Shown: positions 16,059-25,034 of the stretch, in pieces
Layout: each line of letters opens with the position of its first letter
Numbering within the stretch: the first letter of the stretch is position 1
Source of the DNA: Oscillospiraceae bacterium
Lineage (GTDB): Bacteria > Bacillota > Clostridia > Oscillospirales > CAG-382
Length of the DNA stretch: 64,000 bases
Direction of reading: 5' to 3'
Assembly (NCBI GenBank): GCA_015065165.1
Contig: SVQU01000003.1
Span: forward strand, 1-64,000
Program-made: the position numbers and the translations under genes
The notes under the pieces: generated by a model
Database searches by the model: none
Told to the model about the DNA's origin: nothing
The model's input: only the letters and a program-made list of their open reading frames with translations

Positions 16059-18764
16059 TCAACTAAGAGGATATTGACCGTAATAAGCGCGTTTTATCAT
16101 AACGTAATCGAGAACTGTAAGCTTTGATTCTCCGCTTACCATAGCCGCTTGGAGATAAATTCCGTTTAAATCGTATTCCTTAAAGAACGAGCGTTTTATA
16201 TAGCCGTAGTCCATAGAATCGATTTTACCGTTTCCGTTTACGTCCCCTGCGATTCTGACAATTGCAACCACCGAGGTTTTGCCGTTTTGGGTCGCCATGA
16301 TTCTGTTGCCCGTTGCCACAACGGCGGTAGAAGCAAGCGCTTTGCCGTTTTTATCGGTAATCGAAACATTGCCATTAAACTTCTTAAGCAAGGTAGCCAC
16401 TTCAGTGTTGGTGCCCACGCCGTAGAGCATACCGTTTTTAATCGAAATGCTGCTGTCGGTTATGGCAAACTTTTCTTCGGTATCGGTGTCGGGAGGTGTT
16501 ACGGGCTTGTCAGAGGGGATATCCACCTTTACGGTGATTTTACCCGTAATTTTAATATAATCCGCAGAGCAATAGCCTGTGATATCATCGGTTTCTATAT
16601 TATACCAATTGTTCAGAGCATCGCCCACAACGGTAAGCTTTGTTCCGTTTTTAAGCTTGCCCACAATTTCGCCGGAGGTTGAAGGTTGAGCGCGAACGTT
16701 TAGGTTATCGTCGATATTGATAACCTCGCCGTTATAAAGCACGGCCACGTAATCGGCAGAAACGTAGCCAACCACGTTGGTACCGCTTGTGGCTTCGCCC
16801 TTCATTTTATACCAATTGCCTTCTTCGGCAAAAATAACAATTTCTGTGCCCGAATCCAATTCGCCGAGAATTGCGCCCGAGGTGGAGGCTTTATCTCTTA
16901 TATTTAAAGTGCCGCTTGTGGTAACACGGCCGTACCAGCCCGTAACGTTTTCGGTAGAGCTTGAGTCGTTATCTACATCGGGAGGGGTGCCTATTTCTCC
17001 GCTGCCGTCTAACCTGACGTAGCCGTAGATAGCATCGCCCGATGCGCTTTTGCCCAAAACGAAGCTCCAGCCATCCGATTCTTTACCGATAACCGCAGCC
17101 TTACTGCCTGTTTTAAGCGCGCCTAACTTTTTGGAATCTAAATCCTTCGCCTCATAAACCGAAAGAGTGGAGGAATTATCGAAATAGGTAACTGTATCAT
17201 TATCGGCAAGAAGCTTTACGTAGGTAGAAAACACGTAACCCGTAATTTCTTTACCGCGGTTTGAAGTACCCTTTACCTCATACCAATAACCCTTGGGCTC
17301 GCCGATTACCTTTATTTCCGAAAGGAAATCTACAGAACCGACACTGCTGCCACTCCAAGAAGCGGAGCTGCGTACGCGCAAGGAGTCGGTTACCGAAACC
17401 ATCGCCCTATATTCCTTGGATTTTGCCGCAACCGTAACCTTTAAGGTTACCGTTGCGCCGCCCGATGCCTTTGCGGTGATTGTGGCGGTGCCCGCCGCCT
17501 TTGCGGTAACCACGCCCTCTGCACTTACGGTTGCCACAGCGGTATTACTGCTTGTCCAGGTAAGTTTTGCATCCTTTGCATCTATGGGCGCGATAGCCGT
17601 TACGACAGTATATTTTTCCTTGGGAACAAGGGTTATATTATCCTTAACCAAGGTTATGGAAGAAACGTTACGCTTATTTTTGTAAACATATTCCGCAAGC
17701 ACGTAGCCTTTAACGATTTCGCCCTTGCTGTTACATCCCTTTATGTAAATAAATTCGTTACCCTGACTGTCTACGTGGATGGTCTGAGAAGCGATTTTAA
17801 CAGCACATCCGCGGTATATTTTACCCAGAGATTCTGCATTAACCGATGGTGTTTCGCGCACGTTTACGTTTTGGTCCATAATGGTGGCGTTACAGTCTAC
17901 GTAAACGATACAGCAAGCCTCTCTGCCGTTTTTAAGGGTTGCGGTGATAAGAGCAGTACCATGAGAAACGGCGGTAATATTACCCTTTGCATCGACGGTT
18001 GCCACCTTGGGGTTATCGCTGGCGAAGGTAATTTTCGAAGGCTTTTTATTTGAGGGATAGTAGGTTATATTAAGCTGATGCTTTTCGCCGTTAACAAGAA
18101 ATACTCGTTCGGTATCGGCGGTAAGGGCAACTATACCGTCGGAATCGGGCTTGATATCATCATAGGCAGTGAGCCCGTATTGTTCAAGTATATCAATACA
18201 ATTCTCCACATAGCCGTTATCGTTACAGTAACCGCCGTCTACAATTGCCTGAAAAGCCGTTTTATAATTTTTTTCGCCCACAACGGGAGCATAGCTGTCG
18301 TTTTGGGTAAAAAGTTGGCTATGTACGTTTACGCTTTCGCCCCAGCTGTCGTGGGCGCGCCAAGCAGAAACCTCGTTAGAGCGAATAGGACCGAGAGCAA
18401 GAAGAAAATCCGAATAGGAATCGTAAAGCATAGATCGTGTTTGGTCGTAAACCTTACCCGTCCAAGAGCTATACGCCTTTATACCAAACAGATTATTACC
18501 GCCGATGGGCAGAGAATAGGACGCCCAACCGCCCTCGTAAATAGCCTGTGTCAGTGTTACCGATGCAAGAACGTCGGTTTTATAATAATCTGCACGGGCA
18601 AGAGAACCCACCAGTCTTAAGTAATACTCTTGATTTTTATTCAAACCCGAATAATTAACCTCGGCATTTGCGGAAATGGGCACAGCCACCGCCGAAAAAA
18701 CCAAGAAAAACGCAAGAAGAAGCGAGATAAATCCCGAACGTTTCAAAAAACCGCCGCCTTTCAT
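16059..18764 (-). CDS. Secreted glucosaminidase with Big_2, SH3 and dockerin domains
   Basis: This protein of about 900 residues has a signal peptide (to about residue 34), then a GH73-type glucosaminidase domain (40-195) with the likely catalytic Glu77 in TQAIYEGGW. It is followed by a Big_2 domain, an SH3_3 domain, a second Big_2, and four more SH3-like repeats marked by VRSSASW, VYEAKD, IRDKAST and VRAQPST. A dockerin closes it (838-901): the first calcium loop DVNGNGKIDSMD is intact, the second (SGESKLTVLD) has lost its acidic ligands. It should cut cell-wall glycan. The ATG at 18764 has no ribosome binding site; a TTG at 18746, preceded by AAAGGCGGCGG, may be the true start. Confidence 0.88.
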   Translation of the reverse strand: MKGGGFLKRSGFISLLLAFFLVFSAVAVPISANAEVNYSGLNKNQEYYLRLVGSLARADYYKTDVLASVTLTQAIYEGGWASYSLPIGGNNLFGIKAYSSWTGKVYDQTRSMLYDSYSDFLLALGPIRSNEVSAWRAHDSWGESVNVHSQLFTQNDSYAPVVGEKNYKTAFQAIVDGGYCNDNGYVENCIDILEQYGLTAYDDIKPDSDGIVALTADTERVFLVNGEKHQLNITYYPSNKKPSKITFASDNPKVATVDAKGNITAVSHGTALITATLKNGREACCIVYVDCNATIMDQNVNVRETPSVNAESLGKIYRGCAVKIASQTIHVDSQGNEFIYIKGCNSKGEIVKGYVLAEYVYKNKRNVSSITLVKDNITLVPKEKYTVVTAIAPIDAKDAKLTWTSSNTAVATVSAEGVVTAKAAGTATITAKASGGATVTLKVTVAAKSKEYRAMVSVTDSLRVRSSASWSGSSVGSVDFLSEIKVIGEPKGYWYEVKGTSNRGKEITGYVFSTYVKLLADNDTVTYFDNSSTLSVYEAKDLDSKKLGALKTGSKAAVIGKESDGWSFVLGKSASGDAIYGYVRLDGSGEIGTPPDVDNDSSSTENVTGWYGRVTTSGTLNIRDKASTSGAILGELDSGTEIVIFAEEGNWYKMKGEATSGTNVVGYVSADYVAVLYNGEVINIDDNLNVRAQPSTSGEIVGKLKNGTKLTVVGDALNNWYNIETDDITGYCSADYIKITGKITVKVDIPSDKPVTPPDTDTEEKFAITDSSISIKNGMLYGVGTNTEVATLLKKFNGNVSITDKNGKALASTAVVATGNRIMATQNGKTSVVAIVRIAGDVNGNGKIDSMDYGYIKRSFFKEYDLNGIYLQAAMVSGESKLTVLDYVMIKRAYYGQYPLS

Positions 18765-18802
18765 AATTTATGGCATAACCGAAAATTCGGCCATACGGGT
18801 TT

Positions 18803-18831
18803 ATATTAACACATTGCGCGAAAAATGTCAA
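18803..18831 (-). promoter_or_regulatory. Sigma-A promoter of the glucosaminidase gene
   Basis: TTGACA (18826-18831), 17 bp, TAATAT (18803-18808) on the minus strand. Confidence 0.8.
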
Positions 18832-18856
18832 CAACCGCCGAATTCCGAAGACAAAA

Positions 18857-18891
18857 CAAACACCCGAGATTGTTAAAATCTCGGGTGTTTG
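18857..18891 (-). terminator. Terminator of the leucine-rich-repeat gene
   Basis: A stem of about 15 bp built on CAAACACCCGAGAT / ATCTCGGGTGTTTG lies 19 bp after the stop codon of the 18910-20553 gene. Confidence 0.82.
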
Positions 18892-18909
18892 AAAACCGTT
18901 AAGTTGTAA

Positions 18910-20553
18910 TTACTGTAGGTTGAAAATGCCGAAATATGCGCGCTTAATGTTGATATAATCCATAGTCTGGATTTCGCCGTTTTTATTGATATCGCCCGCC
19001 TTCATAGCAATGTCGGACAAATTGTAAATACCAAAATAGAAGCGCTTAAGAACAAAATAGTCCATAGTGTCAAACTCGCCGTTAAGGTTTACGTCGCCCA
19101 ACATATATTCGGGTTCGGGTTCGGGTTCAACAATTGCCTCTGTACCGTAAACAGCAATTTCGTTAAGGAAAGCGAAGGAACCATTAAGAACAAACTCGAT
19201 TTTAACGAATCTGCCTGTTGCTTCAGCAGCCAATTCTGCCCAAGCAACGTTATTTACGGCTTCACCGATAGTTAAATCGCCAACGCGGGTGAATTCGCCA
19301 TCTGCGGAATCGGAAACGTAAGCGGTGATTTTTGCAGCGCCGTTTACGCCGGATTCTTCAATGTTTGTACCAACAGCGGTATTTACCTTGATAGAGGTGA
19401 TATCGTATGCGCCCTCGAGGTCGATGGTAACGGTACCAACACCGTTGGGAGCGTTAACGCCGTTTTTACCCTCGGAAGTGCAGAATGCAAACCAAGAGTT
19501 ATCGAAGTTAACGGTTCTTGCAGCCTTACCGTCGGTAAGGTCGGCAGTATAATCTGCAGCCCACTGACCGTCGGTAGCATAGCCCAGAGCATCATATTTT
19601 TTGCCCAACGCAACGTTACCGTTGGTGTTGTAGGAATCGTCGGTAACAGCATCATAACCGAGGTGAATTTCGGTTTCGATTTCTTCACTTACCCAGCCTG
19701 TGCCCATATCCTCGGGGAGGGTTTCTGCTTCGAAGTATACGTCGGTAAGAGCAGGACATTCGTCAAAAGCATAAGCGCCGATAGAGGTTACGCTTTCGGG
19801 GATAACTACCGAGGGAAGCACGTCGCAATAGCTGAAGCTGCCTCTGCCGATAGTTTCAAGACCGTCGCCCAAATCCAGAGATTCGAGAACGTAGCAGAAC
19901 TGGAATGCATAGCTGTCGATTTTAACAACAGAATCGGGAAGCTCGATAGATTTGAGGTTGTAGCAAAGAACGAAAGCATCTCTGCCGATGGTGGTAATGT
20001 TAGAGGGAATATAAAGCGCGCCCGCTTCGTTGGTGGGTTGGCTTACGAGCTTGGTGATACCCGCACAGCTGTCAAAGGCATGATCGCCGATAGTGGTAAC
20101 CTTAGAATCGGTAGGAATCACGCTGGCTTTACAGCCTACAACCAAAACGTTGGTATCTTTTTCGAGAATACAGTTGCCTTGGCTGTAATAAGCCTCGTTT
20201 GCGCTGTCAACGGTAAGCTGAACAATCGATGAGCAAGCCGCGATAGCCGCGCCTTTAATGGAAGTGATGGATTTGGGAATGTAAATGCTTACGATAGAAT
20301 CGCAGCCTGCAAAAGCATCACTTTTAATTTCGGTAACGGGGATGCCGTTAAGGCTTTCGGGAATAGTAACGATGATTGCATCGTTGGGGCAATCCGCAAA
20401 GACATAATATTCGTTGCCCAAATAATCGGCCTTTTTTTCATAAAGGGCGCCGTTTGCATCGGTAGTGGTTTCCACAGCTGTACCGAGCACGGTAACGGGG
20501 AGCAACATAAAAATCATTGCTGCCACGAGAAAAACAGATAAAGCTTTTTTCAT
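18910..20553 (-). CDS. Secreted LRR_5 (BspA-like) protein with F5/8C and dockerin
   Basis: This 547-residue exported protein starts with a signal peptide (MKKALSVFLVAAMIFMLLP). Residues about 40-280 are BspA-type leucine-rich repeats (IPSNITTIGRDAFVLCYNLK, LPDSVVKIDSYAFQFCYVLE and similar). A discoidin/F5/8 type C-like module follows (NVALGKKYDALGYATDG to FLNEIAVYGTE), then a dockerin with two calcium loops (DVNLNGEFDTMD and DINKNGEIQTMD), each followed by a KRFYFGIY/KRAYFGIF helix. It probably binds glycans or proteins outside the cell. I chose the start at 20553 because GAGGTG precedes it and it begins the signal peptide. Confidence 0.88.
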   Translation of the reverse strand: MKKALSVFLVAAMIFMLLPVTVLGTAVETTTDANGALYEKKADYLGNEYYVFADCPNDAIIVTIPESLNGIPVTEIKSDAFAGCDSIVSIYIPKSITSIKGAAIAACSSIVQLTVDSANEAYYSQGNCILEKDTNVLVVGCKASVIPTDSKVTTIGDHAFDSCAGITKLVSQPTNEAGALYIPSNITTIGRDAFVLCYNLKSIELPDSVVKIDSYAFQFCYVLESLDLGDGLETIGRGSFSYCDVLPSVVIPESVTSIGAYAFDECPALTDVYFEAETLPEDMGTGWVSEEIETEIHLGYDAVTDDSYNTNGNVALGKKYDALGYATDGQWAADYTADLTDGKAARTVNFDNSWFAFCTSEGKNGVNAPNGVGTVTIDLEGAYDITSIKVNTAVGTNIEESGVNGAAKITAYVSDSADGEFTRVGDLTIGEAVNNVAWAELAAEATGRFVKIEFVLNGSFAFLNEIAVYGTEAIVEPEPEPEYMLGDVNLNGEFDTMDYFVLKRFYFGIYNLSDIAMKAGDINKNGEIQTMDYINIKRAYFGIFNLQ

Positions 20554-20589
20554 AAAAAAACACCTCGAGAATAACATAATACATAATAC

Positions 20590-20618
20590 ATTATACTCGA
20601 GATGTTTTATAGCTTCAA
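20590..20618 (-). promoter_or_regulatory. Sigma-A promoter of the leucine-rich-repeat gene
   Basis: TTGAAG (20613-20618), 17 bp, TATAAT (20590-20595) on the minus strand. CTCGAG occurs both just upstream of the -10 and near the ribosome binding site, so the leader could fold on itself. Confidence 0.65.
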
Positions 20619-20695
20619 TTGGCATTAAGCCGTTTTTTTATTAAAGATATGAATTTTTTTATAGAGAATGTAAGAAGTATCAATAAAAATTATTA

Positions 20696-21834: not shown

Positions 21835-22773
21835 ATGAAATACCAATATTGCTACGAAGGAAAGCTTTTAAAAACCGAACAAAACAGGTATTACACCCAA
21901 AATTCCGATACACTTGCGGAAGCAATGGAAAGAGAAATTATTTTAGAGGGCATAAGCTATCTTTGCGACCACGACCGCCATTTACATATACGCTTGGGCG
22001 ATATGGAGGGAATAATTCCCCGCAGTGAATGTGTTTATACCCAAAGCGGATTGCCCGAAAAGGATATTGCAATTATCTCCCGCGTGGGCAAACCCGTTTG
22101 CTTTAAGGTTATGGGGATAGAAAAGGACGAAAACGGCAACGTGAAAGCCATTTGTTCCCGCCGGGAAGCGCAAATGGATTGTATGCGCAACAAGATTGAA
22201 TTTCTCGAAACAGGGGACGTTATCGAAGCCCGCATTACGAGATTAGACCCATTTGGGGCGTTTTGCGACATCGGTTGCGGTGTAATTTCCCTTTTGCCTA
22301 TCGATTGTATGTCGGTTTCAAGAATATCCCACCCACGGGACCGTTTTAGAAACGGACAGGTGATTAAAGTGGTTGTAAAAAACAAAGCAGACGATTTTGG
22401 AAGGATAACCCTTACCCACCGTGAGCTTTTGGGCACTTGGGAGGAGAACGCGGCACGATTCACATCGGGACAGACCGCGGCGGGAATTATAAGGTCTATC
22501 GAGGATTACGGCGTATTTGTAGAGCTTGCCCCCAACCTTGCAGGACTTGCGGAATGCCGAAGCGACGTTGCTGTTGGGCAAAGCGCGGCGGTTTTTATAA
22601 AAAACATTATTCCCGACAGAATGAAGGTTAAGTTAGCCATAATCGATTGTATGGACAGCGAAACCACCGTTCCCGATTATGAATACCCCGACATTTCTCA
22701 CATCGACCGTTGGAAATATTCCCCCGAGGGATGCGAGAAGGTAATCGAAAGCATTTTCAATAGCGGTGAATAA
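21835..22773 (+). CDS. S1 RNA-binding domain protein
   Basis: This 312-residue protein has the layout of the short S1-like proteins of Clostridia. It has a degenerate N-terminal S1-like domain (about 30-90), a clear S1 domain (125-197: GDVIEARITRLDPFGAFCDI) and a second (207-275: GQTAAGIIRSIEDYGVFVEL). It probably binds mRNA at the ribosome or acts as a related RNA-binding factor; it is shorter than canonical ribosomal protein S1. AAGGAGCGA precedes the ATG. It diverges from prfA, and its 3' side runs into the palindromic repeat array. Confidence 0.82.
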   Translation: MKYQYCYEGKLLKTEQNRYYTQNSDTLAEAMEREIILEGISYLCDHDRHLHIRLGDMEGIIPRSECVYTQSGLPEKDIAIISRVGKPVCFKVMGIEKDENGNVKAICSRREAQMDCMRNKIEFLETGDVIEARITRLDPFGAFCDIGCGVISLLPIDCMSVSRISHPRDRFRNGQVIKVVVKNKADDFGRITLTHRELLGTWEENAARFTSGQTAAGIIRSIEDYGVFVELAPNLAGLAECRSDVAVGQSAAVFIKNIIPDRMKVKLAIIDCMDSETTVPDYEYPDISHIDRWKYSPEGCEKVIESIFNSGE

Positions 22774-22820: not shown

Positions 22821-22865
22821 GCACGGCGGGTCGTCGAGGACGCCGACCCCTACAATTATAATTGT
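22821..22865. repeat. Short palindromic intergenic repeats
   Basis: Two adjacent inverted repeats lie here: GGGTCG (22828-22833) with CGACCC (22844-22849), and a perfect 14 bp palindrome ACAATTATAATTGT (22852-22865). They precede the tandem array. From memory, the GGGTCGTCGAGGACGCCGAC type of repeat is common between genes in gut Clostridia, but that was not checked. Confidence 0.5.
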
Positions 22866-22880
22866 ATCGTTTCCATATAA

Positions 22881-23769
22881 AATCCGATGAAAATGCTCAT
22901 CATTTTCATTGAAAGCGAAGCGCCAAATACAATAAATTTTCATAAAAATCAAGGACATGCGCCTTGATTTTTATACCTATGGCGTTCGCAAGTTTGGACA
23001 AGGCGTATTTGCGCCGCGCACAAACTTGACGCGAGTGAACGAACGCCCAAACCCATTGAAAACCGTGTGTTTTCAATGGAGAGCGAAGCTCTAAATTTTC
23101 ATAAAAATCGGCGACAAGCGCGTCGATTTTTATTCCTATGGCGTTCGCAAGTTTGGACAAGGCGCTTTTGCGCCGCGCACAAACTTGACGCGAGTGAACG
23201 AACGCCCCAAGCCCATTGAAAACCGTGTGTTTTCAATGGAGAGCGAAGCTCTAAATTTTCATAAAAATCGGCGACAAGCGCGTCGATTTTTATACCTATG
23301 GCGTTCGCAAGTTTGGACAAGGCATATTTGCGCCGCGCACAAACTTGACGCGAGTGAACGAACGCCCAAACCCATTGAAAACCGTGTGTTTTCAATGGAG
23401 AGCGAAGCGAAAGCGAAGCGCCAAATACAATAAATTTTCATAAAAATCGGCGACAAGTGCGTCGATTTTTATACCTATGGCGTTCGCAAGTTTGGACAAG
23501 GCGCTTTTGCGCCGCGCACAAACTTGACGCGAGGGAACGAACGCCCAAACCCATTGAAAACCGTGTGTTTTCAATGGAGAGCGAAGCGAAAGCGAAGCGC
23601 CAAATACAATAAATTTTCATAAAAATCGGCGACAAGCGCGTCGATTTTTATACCTATGGCGTTCGCAAGTTTGGACAAGGCGTATTTGCGCCGCGCACAA
23701 ACTTGACGCGAGTGAACGAACGCCCCAAGCCCATTGAAAACCGTGTGTTTTCAATGGAGAGCGAAGCGC
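22881..23769. repeat. Tandem array of a three-hairpin palindromic repeat
   Basis: Five near-identical units start at 22942, 23101, 23261, 23440 and 23619, after a diverged half unit (hairpin at 22887-22909). Each unit holds hairpin A (about 13 bp stem, 7-base loop), hairpin B (16 bp stem built from GGCGTTCGCAAGTTTG with an 11-base bulge and an inner GGCG/CGCC hairpin) and hairpin C (CCATTGAAAAC / GTTTTCAATGG). Unit spacing is 159, 160, 179 and 179 bp because two linker versions exist. The overlapping open frames in this stretch are artefacts of the repetition. Hairpin C of the last unit ends 12 bases from the obgE stop codon. Confidence 0.9.
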
Positions 23770-23771
23770 CC

Positions 23772-25034
23772 TTAATAATAGAACTCAAATTCTACACCGT
23801 AAATATCTACGGTTTGCCCCTCTTGAATTCCCGCATCCTCAAGAGCCTTTATAACGCCCTTATCACGAAGAACACGCTGGAAATATTGCAGGGATTCGTA
23901 ATCGTCAAAATTGATATCGTTGCAAAGGCGCACAAGCCATTCGCCGATAACCTTATAAATGCCGTCAACAATTTCAACGGTAACGGACATATCGTAATCG
24001 GTAGGTGTTTCAACGTATTCTTCCTCGTAATAGGTCATAGGAGGGAGCTCGGCAAGTTTTTGGGAAACCGCCTTCATCAATTCGGGTACACCCTCGGAAA
24101 GACCGCCGGAAATAAGGAAAAGCTCACATCCGTTCGCATCGGCATATTCCTTAACGCGGGCAAGATGCTCATCGGAATAGCCCATATCAATTTTATTACC
24201 AACAAGAATCTGCGGTCTCGAAGCTAATTCGGGACTGTATTTTCTTAATTCGGCATTAATGCTTAATATATCTGAAAGAGGATCTTCTCTTTCACTGGCG
24301 GAAATATCAAAAATATGAAGAATAAGACGGCATCTGTCGATATGACGCAAAAAGTCGTGGCCCAAGCCCAAGCCGTCGCTTGCGCCCTCGATAAGACCGG
24401 GGATATCCGCCATAACAAAGCTTTTGCCGTAAACGGTAACCACGCCCAAATTGGGGGCAAGAGTTGTAAAATGATAGTTTGCGATTTTAGGTCTTGCGGC
24501 TGTAACCTCGGAAAGAAGTGTGGATTTGCCCACGTTGGGGAATCCCACCAAGCCAACGTCCGCAAGCATTTTAAGCTCTAAAACAACGTTACGCTCGCCG
24601 CCCTTTGTACCGCTTTTTGCAAAACGGGGCACTTGGCGTGTAGGGGTTGCGAAATGGGTGTTACCCCAACCGCCTTTACCGCCCTTTGCCGCAATAAAGG
24701 GCAAGCCGTCGGACATATCGTGAATAACAAGACCGCTTTCGGGGTCGCGAATAATCGTTCCTTGGGGTACGGGAATAACCAAATCCTCCCCGCCCTTGCC
24801 GTGGAATTTCTTCGCCATACCGTCGCCGCCGTTTTGGGCAACGAATTTACGGCGGTATTTAAAGTTAAGCAGAGTATTTTCGCCCTCGTCAACAACAAAA
24901 ACGATATTACCGCCTCTGCCGCCGTCGCCGCCGTCGGGACCGCCCTTGGCAACGTATTTTTCGCGACGGAAAGAAACGCAACCGTTACCGCCGTCGCCTG
25001 CTTTTATAAATATTTGCACCTTATCTATAAACAT
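23772..25034 (-). CDS. obgE: GTPase ObgE/CgtA
   Basis: This 420-residue protein is a complete Obg GTPase involved in large ribosomal subunit assembly and stress control. The glycine-rich Obg domain (1-158, with GGPDGGDGGRGGN) is followed by the G domain with GFPNVGKS (164-171), DIPG (210-213) and NKID, and a C-terminal OCT domain (about 345-420) as found in Firmicutes. A ribosome binding site AAAGGAG precedes the ATG. It follows rplU-prp-rpmA as in most bacteria, but an intervening terminator suggests it is also transcribed on its own. Confidence 0.96.
   Translation of the reverse strand: MFIDKVQIFIKAGDGGNGCVSFRREKYVAKGGPDGGDGGRGGNIVFVVDEGENTLLNFKYRRKFVAQNGGDGMAKKFHGKGGEDLVIPVPQGTIIRDPESGLVIHDMSDGLPFIAAKGGKGGWGNTHFATPTRQVPRFAKSGTKGGERNVVLELKMLADVGLVGFPNVGKSTLLSEVTAARPKIANYHFTTLAPNLGVVTVYGKSFVMADIPGLIEGASDGLGLGHDFLRHIDRCRLILHIFDISASEREDPLSDILSINAELRKYSPELASRPQILVGNKIDMGYSDEHLARVKEYADANGCELFLISGGLSEGVPELMKAVSQKLAELPPMTYYEEEYVETPTDYDMSVTVEIVDGIYKVIGEWLVRLCNDINFDDYESLQYFQRVLRDKGVIKALEDAGIQEGQTVDIYGVEFEFYY

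Follow-up and report, generated by a model that had tools for sequence, protein, structure and literature searches.

A tandem three-hairpin array behind obg belongs to a dispersed family of gene-end repeats in uncultured gut Clostridia

When both arms of a hairpin stem have changed together between neighbouring repeats, does this record selection on structure or the repeated insertion of related structured elements? The question is raised by a gap between two convergent genes in an Oscillospiraceae genome (contig SVQU01000003.1; "the window" refers to the whole 64,000-nucleotide stretch analysed), which is filled by five tandem units and a half unit and for which a preliminary description, made from the letters alone, had offered both readings. 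The features of the locus are given below with the scores of a covariance model, R1, built from A1, an alignment of 34 copies of the element. Genomes are designated by G numbers (G000 being the source genome) and loci with further copies by L numbers.

21835..22773, plus strand: S1-domain protein gene (PF00575), convergent.
22844..22923, minus strand: half unit consisting of the leader and a hairpin C with a different stem, without B or A (R1 33.4 bits, E 1.4e-6; sequence).
22934..23091, minus strand: unit 1, which carries the other common hairpin A type, CAAGG..CCTTG (R1 match, 172 bits).
23093..23251, minus strand: unit 2 (R1 match, 170.3 bits).
23253..23410, minus strand: unit 3 (R1 match, 174.5 bits).
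23432..23589, minus strand: unit 4 (R1 match, 172.7 bits).
23611..23769, minus strand: unit 5, the first after obg, in the order C-B-A, 2 nt from the obg stop (R1 match, 174.7 bits).
22941..22975, strand-neutral: hairpin A of unit 1 (terminator-like scan on the minus strand, sequence, unit 3 fold); in the other units at about 23100-23134, 23260-23294, 23439-23473 and 23618-23652.
22981..23047: hairpin B of unit 1, with an 8 bp outer stem, an 11-nt bulge, an 8 bp inner stem and a variable apex (unit 3 fold, consensus, sequence); in the other units at 23140-23206, 23300-23366, 23479-23545 and 23658-23724.
23053..23079: hairpin C of unit 1 (inverted-repeat search, unit 3 fold); in the other units at 23213-23239, 23372-23398, 23551-23577 and 23731-23757.
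23758..23769, minus strand: leader CGCTTCGCTCTC of unit 5, separating its hairpin C from the obg stop (sequence; the same leader follows the obg stop in G005, G006, G003 and G004).
23772..25034, minus strand: obg (GTPase; PF01018, PF01926, PF09269), the codirectional gene upstream of the array.

The architecture given in the preliminary description was borne out. The units start at 22933, 23092, 23252, 23431 and 23610, with spacings of 159, 160, 179 and 179 bp that were also returned by TRF and that reproduce the reported alternation of short, short, long and long linkers, and unit 3, the sole unit folded, forms three hairpins (-61.1 kcal/mol and z -6.0 on the plus strand, z -4.9 on the minus strand). 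The natural reading direction of the element is the minus strand, on which each cassette of about 160 bp comprises the leader CGCTTCGCTCTC, hairpin C, hairpin B with its bulge (ACGCGAGTGAA on the plus strand), hairpin A and a tail near TTTATTGTAT; hairpin C begins about 12–15 nt after the obg stop codon. The 16 bp stem reported for hairpin B is an 8+8 bp stem, and the half unit with its different hairpin C stem is real. Array units that were compared are 95–98% alike, and the hairpin A stem differs as had been stated, being AAGG/CCTT in unit 1 and GGCG/CGTC in units 2–5, where one pair is G-T on the plus strand and A-C on the minus strand.

The array was rejected as coding sequence because open reading frames of up to 98 aa keep no common frame across the unequally spaced units, and the leader was rejected as a general terminator of the genome, its pattern occurring within the 64 kb only at the array and at one other site (27382). 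A different palindromic repeat, GGGTCG..CGACCC, lies at 22827-22849 and is followed by a 16-bp perfect palindrome, TACAATTATAATTGTA, at 22851-22866; similar repeats (TGTAGGGGCGATTC..GAATCGCCC) are found near other copies of the element (L008), and this repeat, like REPs, carries a GTAG foot on the other strand, although the source genome is without Y1_Tnp. Elsewhere in the window (16059-20625) two dockerin-bearing proteins are encoded, a glucosaminidase with SH3 and Big domains and a protein with BspA-type leucine-rich repeats.

A plain decayed satellite, produced by local tandem duplications with neither function nor spread, would agree with the likeness of the compared units and with the half unit at the array end. 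R1, however, gave 30 matches in the source genome, 6 of them within the window and about 24 elsewhere, and matches were obtained in 20 of the 24 genomes of the genus and in 24 of 63 genomes (3 of 13 genera) of the family; the array is therefore not a private satellite. A DNA search returned 18 matches in the source genome, 12 of which lie outside the array, and matches in 13 of 60 genomes searched, all belonging to one genus, while a pattern scan of a genome collection comprising, by its own description, 84,980 species yielded at least 28 stretches (a lower bound, as the pattern was narrow), all from Clostridia or Oscillospiraceae metagenome-assembled genomes, most of whose titles name ruminant gut. 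The element was not matched in plasmids, in phages or, with two exact patterns, in viral contigs. The dispersed copies, the genus-wide presence and the covariation described below refute simple decayed duplication as a full account, and we give it practically no chance. Against Rfam the array gave nothing above the gathering score (the best match below it was a Rubella model, with 19 bits and E 0.64), and among the matches listed in searches of CC-licensed PMC papers, by topic and by leader sequence, no literature on the element was found. The three-hairpin element is a genuine family, for which these literature and Rfam searches gave no name.

Pairing in this family is maintained far above control levels. 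In A2 (116 R1 matches from 86 sources, an alignment fitted to R1 that includes most of the sequences from which R1 was built), 95.7% of 4701 cells form standard pairs compared with 69.9% after shuffling, 40 of the 44 pairs have changed on both sides, and the covariation score is 0.551 as opposed to 0.161 in shuffled and at most 0.144 in slid alignments. A3, whose 44 matches (42 distinct, two loci overlapping each other) come from distant genus members and another genus and were likewise fitted to R1, though none was used for building it, gave 91.8% paired cells against 65.4% shuffled, two-sided changes in 35 of the 44 pairs and a score of 0.347 against 0.095. Mean column entropy is 0.95 bits in paired and 0.73 bits in unpaired columns of A2, but 0.91 and 0.93 bits, respectively, in A3, so that the contrast between variable stems and conserved loops is clear only in the closer set. 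The conserved unpaired blocks are the leader, the hairpin B bulge, GTGCGC, CTTGTCC, AGGTATA and the hairpin A loop.

The changes tend to come in blocks. Twenty copy pairs with 90–94% identity in unpaired columns differ, per pair, by 7.9 double, 0.55 breaking, 0.9 wobble and 0.8 other changes, and a unit of the window compared with L100 shows 95% identity in unpaired columns with 19 double changes and no broken pair. The core of hairpin A reads AAAA/TTTT in 58 of the 116 copies and TTTT/AAAA in 45, with few mixed forms, and both states are present together in well-sampled genomes. Such changes, with so few intermediates, are what a purely mutational origin of the covariation would produce, in which one arm is rewritten from the other by intrastrand template switching (quasi-palindrome correction) and pairing is kept without structural selection; according to PMC8794818, template switching can give rise to perfect stems and to compensatory changes of several bases at once. 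As an account of the whole we consider it clearly improbable, since it leaves the conserved loops, the position at gene ends and the spread unexplained, and whole-hairpin exchange between copies accounts for many of the block changes too.

Exchange also bears on the changes within the array itself. Hairpin A of unit 1 is identical letter for letter to that of L009/L053, and to that of L011/L058 but for one end letter, and because it matches a dispersed copy, exchange between copies explains the change better than compensation in place. Judging from these identities, the compensatory-looking change inside the array is probably such an exchange; it exemplifies the family pattern and is no proof of in-place compensation. 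The earlier proposal of selection on structure or repeated insertion therefore stands in so far as pairing is far above controls and the family is dispersed and duplicating, but the array's own changes are poor evidence for in-place compensation, and across the family the covariation shows no G-U excess of the kind that RNA selection should leave.

The copies lie at gene ends in a fixed orientation. Gene neighbours, called with a purpose-made simple gene caller in place of standard annotation, place 82 of 90 first-in-cluster copies after a codirectional gene and 8 in the opposite orientation (binomial p 1.4e-16; 6 copies with no gene in reach and 20 that are not first are left out). Of the 73 copies with both neighbours, 35 start at most 4 nt from the stop codon, few-nt overlaps included, compared with 3.1 expected if each copy were placed uniformly in its own gap; where the A side faces the stop codon, 2 of 23 copies are within 4 nt. 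In two genus members an OLE RNA gene (RF01071; L129 965-1619 and L158 997-1653) shares its last bases with the element directly following it, which hence marks transcript ends and not stop codons only. In G012 (L105, L107, L108, L119, L120, L121), most opposite-orientation copies follow genes including, by eye, dockerin-like repeat proteins, with about 97 nt between gene and element at several loci. A further hairpin module, similar to CCCCAAAAATGCAAGCATTTTCGGGGACCCC, often lies within hairpins or separates the leader from the stop codon (L102, L123, L145, L147, L055).

These positions are among the evidence for a cis-acting structured RNA, i.e., a compound terminator or mRNA 3'-end stabiliser whose fold is needed by the upstream gene and whose spread is a by-product. 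Such an RNA would also be consistent with the covariation in A2 and A3, with the 7 terminator-like sites in the array region (2.1 in shuffles, both strands counted) and with the T run that often follows hairpin C in the aligned copies. Against such an RNA stand the 17 orthologous obg loci listed, where a full element is present in G005, leader and hairpin C in G002, G006, G003 and G004, and remnants in others, nothing being recognisable by eye in G012 and G019. Termination at A is made less likely by the flip of the A stem to TTTT/AAAA, through which many copies lose the U-tract, and A-C mismatches are frequent in hairpin A on the transcribed strand.

Wobble pairs provide another means of separating pairing kept in RNA from pairing kept in DNA. 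Counted under neutral pairing rules, with each distinct arm pair taken once, the element stems hold 1940 Watson-Crick, 8 G-T, 52 A-C and 8 other cells, so that G-T makes up 8 of 2008; 42 of the 52 A-C cells sit in hairpin A, whose consensus has one fixed A-C place. The acceptor and T stems of 31 distinct tRNAs of the source genome, in comparison, hold 333 Watson-Crick, 34 G-T, 2 A-C and 3 other cells (34 of 372 G-T). Among 133 terminator-like hairpins found after 535 gene ends, with the elements masked, 61 are perfect and those with one mismatch have G-T in 36 cases and A-C in 21, a mild wobble excess only, so that the strand test does not clearly set the element apart from ordinary terminators, and we have lowered accordingly the claim that wobble alone excludes an RNA function. 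In the element stems the G-U signature of a selected RNA is missing, but it is faint in terminators as well. With wobble almost absent, pairing would seem to be maintained at the DNA level as much as by RNA selection, and a structured RNA as the explanation of the family appears to us rather unlikely.

With regard to how copies multiply, direct repeats of about 20–106 bp flank 20 of the 116 copies at a score of at least 16, a threshold to be read against 334 cross-genome pairs of which 95% score at most 11 and the maximum is 34; the other 96 copies are without such repeats at this threshold, and the 20 include the array itself as well as cases of other, nested repeats (L120, L156). Examples include 34 bp on both sides of L069, a 51 bp gene end with its stop codon at L160 and 95 bp with the downstream gene start at L116. 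At L160, L064, L067 and L151 another leader with hairpin C, often partial, follows the second flank. Neighbouring copies compared by eye share their stems in five cases (the array, L064, L105, L106 and L151 at 6720) and different stems in three (L151 at 1832, L160 and L067). An insertion reading is supported by the direct repeats of flanking DNA around some copies, and from these comparisons both tandem duplication and insertion or replacement by another copy seem to occur. A separate repeat family, which combines a core of GCAGTAGATTTCTACAGC or similar with variable arms, was seen at L127, L137, L085, L146, L156 and L084, and at L137 its outer arms are an inverted copy of the flanking gene end.

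Palindromes at gene 3' ends recall REP/BIME elements mobilised by a REP-associated tyrosine transposase, and the three-hairpin element shares the 3'-end location of REPs. REP clusters recur together with varying lengths of flanking DNA (PMC3733652), and REP palindromes directly after stop codons affect translation only when they lie less than 16 nt from the stop (PMC12306157). However, our unit of about 160 bp, as opposed to 20–40 bp, has three distinct hairpins in fixed order and almost no G-T, its leader is CGCT..CGCTCTC, and neither a GTAG nor a CGTC foot was seen by eye in the 34 aligned copies. Y1_Tnp (PF01797) gave no match in the source genome G000 or in the element-rich genomes G002, G005, G006, G012 and G018; it occurs in 5 of the 24 genus genomes, G022 being the one element-rich genome among them. 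A REP/BIME system with Y1 transposase is thereby largely refuted in the source genome, and we hold it to be very improbable.

BOX elements of Streptococcus pneumoniae (boxA-boxB-boxC) are similar in being small modular interspersed repeats with three kinds of module, predicted stem-loops and changing copy number, and 36 of them lie at gene 3' ends, BOX elements being enriched between convergent genes (PMC3049150). The three-hairpin element is likewise modular, with the order C-B-A, extra or missing modules and partial copies. It differs in that BOX supplies the stop codon in those 36 cases, whereas our element has native-looking stop codons, hypervariable stems and long flanking repeats of variable length. 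BOX also has terminal inverted repeats; none was noticed by eye between leader and tail of the 34 aligned copies. Target hairpins of diversity-generating retroelements also lie near stop codons and may vary in stem sequence while structure and loop sequence matter (PMC3240598), but the genes upstream of our element are housekeeping genes such as obg, and the reverse transcriptase domain RVT_1, present in 6 of the 24 genus genomes, is absent from G000. Hairpins C and A, with A/T flanks after stop codons, resemble intrinsic (bidirectional) terminators, but the element forms a sequence family that is dispersed and keeps its loops and leader, and many of its A stems have the inverted A/T order. 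The family works like BOX/BIME elements but was identified as neither; of the REP traits, the foot was not noticed by eye in the aligned copies and the Y1 transposase was not found in the source genome. It belongs to a known broad kind, the small modular interspersed palindromic repeats, and its unusual trait is its hypervariable, almost purely Watson-Crick stems.

On balance, we think it somewhat probable that the array represents local amplification at one of the sites occupied by a clade-specific family of 3'-end cassettes that are small, modular and duplicating. The cassettes are dispersed and oriented, lie directly at gene 3' ends, and have conserved loops, interchangeable Watson-Crick-paired stems and, at some copies, direct repeats. 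Duplicative insertion or template switching, at gene ends and beside existing leaders, would generate new copies, arrays would grow by tandem duplication, and hairpins may be exchanged between copies, as is supported by the two A-stem states, AAAA/TTTT and TTTT/AAAA, in the same genomes. Once placed, a cassette is predicted to become the 3' end of the upstream transcript, as terminator and exonuclease block, and hairpin C, at its short distance from the stop codon, could be near enough to act on terminating ribosomes. Pairing at the DNA level might involve single-strand or cruciform hairpins, or one arm being copied from the other by template switching. A more specific version, which we put forward tentatively and with a good deal of doubt, would be a mobile element whose hairpins, as single-stranded DNA (or RNA), are recognised by shape and loops and not by stem sequence. 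It would land at gene 3' ends and duplicate flanks of variable length, and template switching would continually replace its stems with new Watson-Crick blocks, both arms of a hairpin evolving as one unit.

Placed directly after stop codons and OLE RNA, the cassette is a candidate for a portable 3'-end part. It is common to treat covarying stems as strong evidence for RNA function, and the family is a caution in this respect for structured-RNA discovery in metagenomes; with hundreds of paralogous hairpins and paired changes almost without wobble intermediates, it may serve as a natural data set for testing template switching on DNA as a source of covariation.
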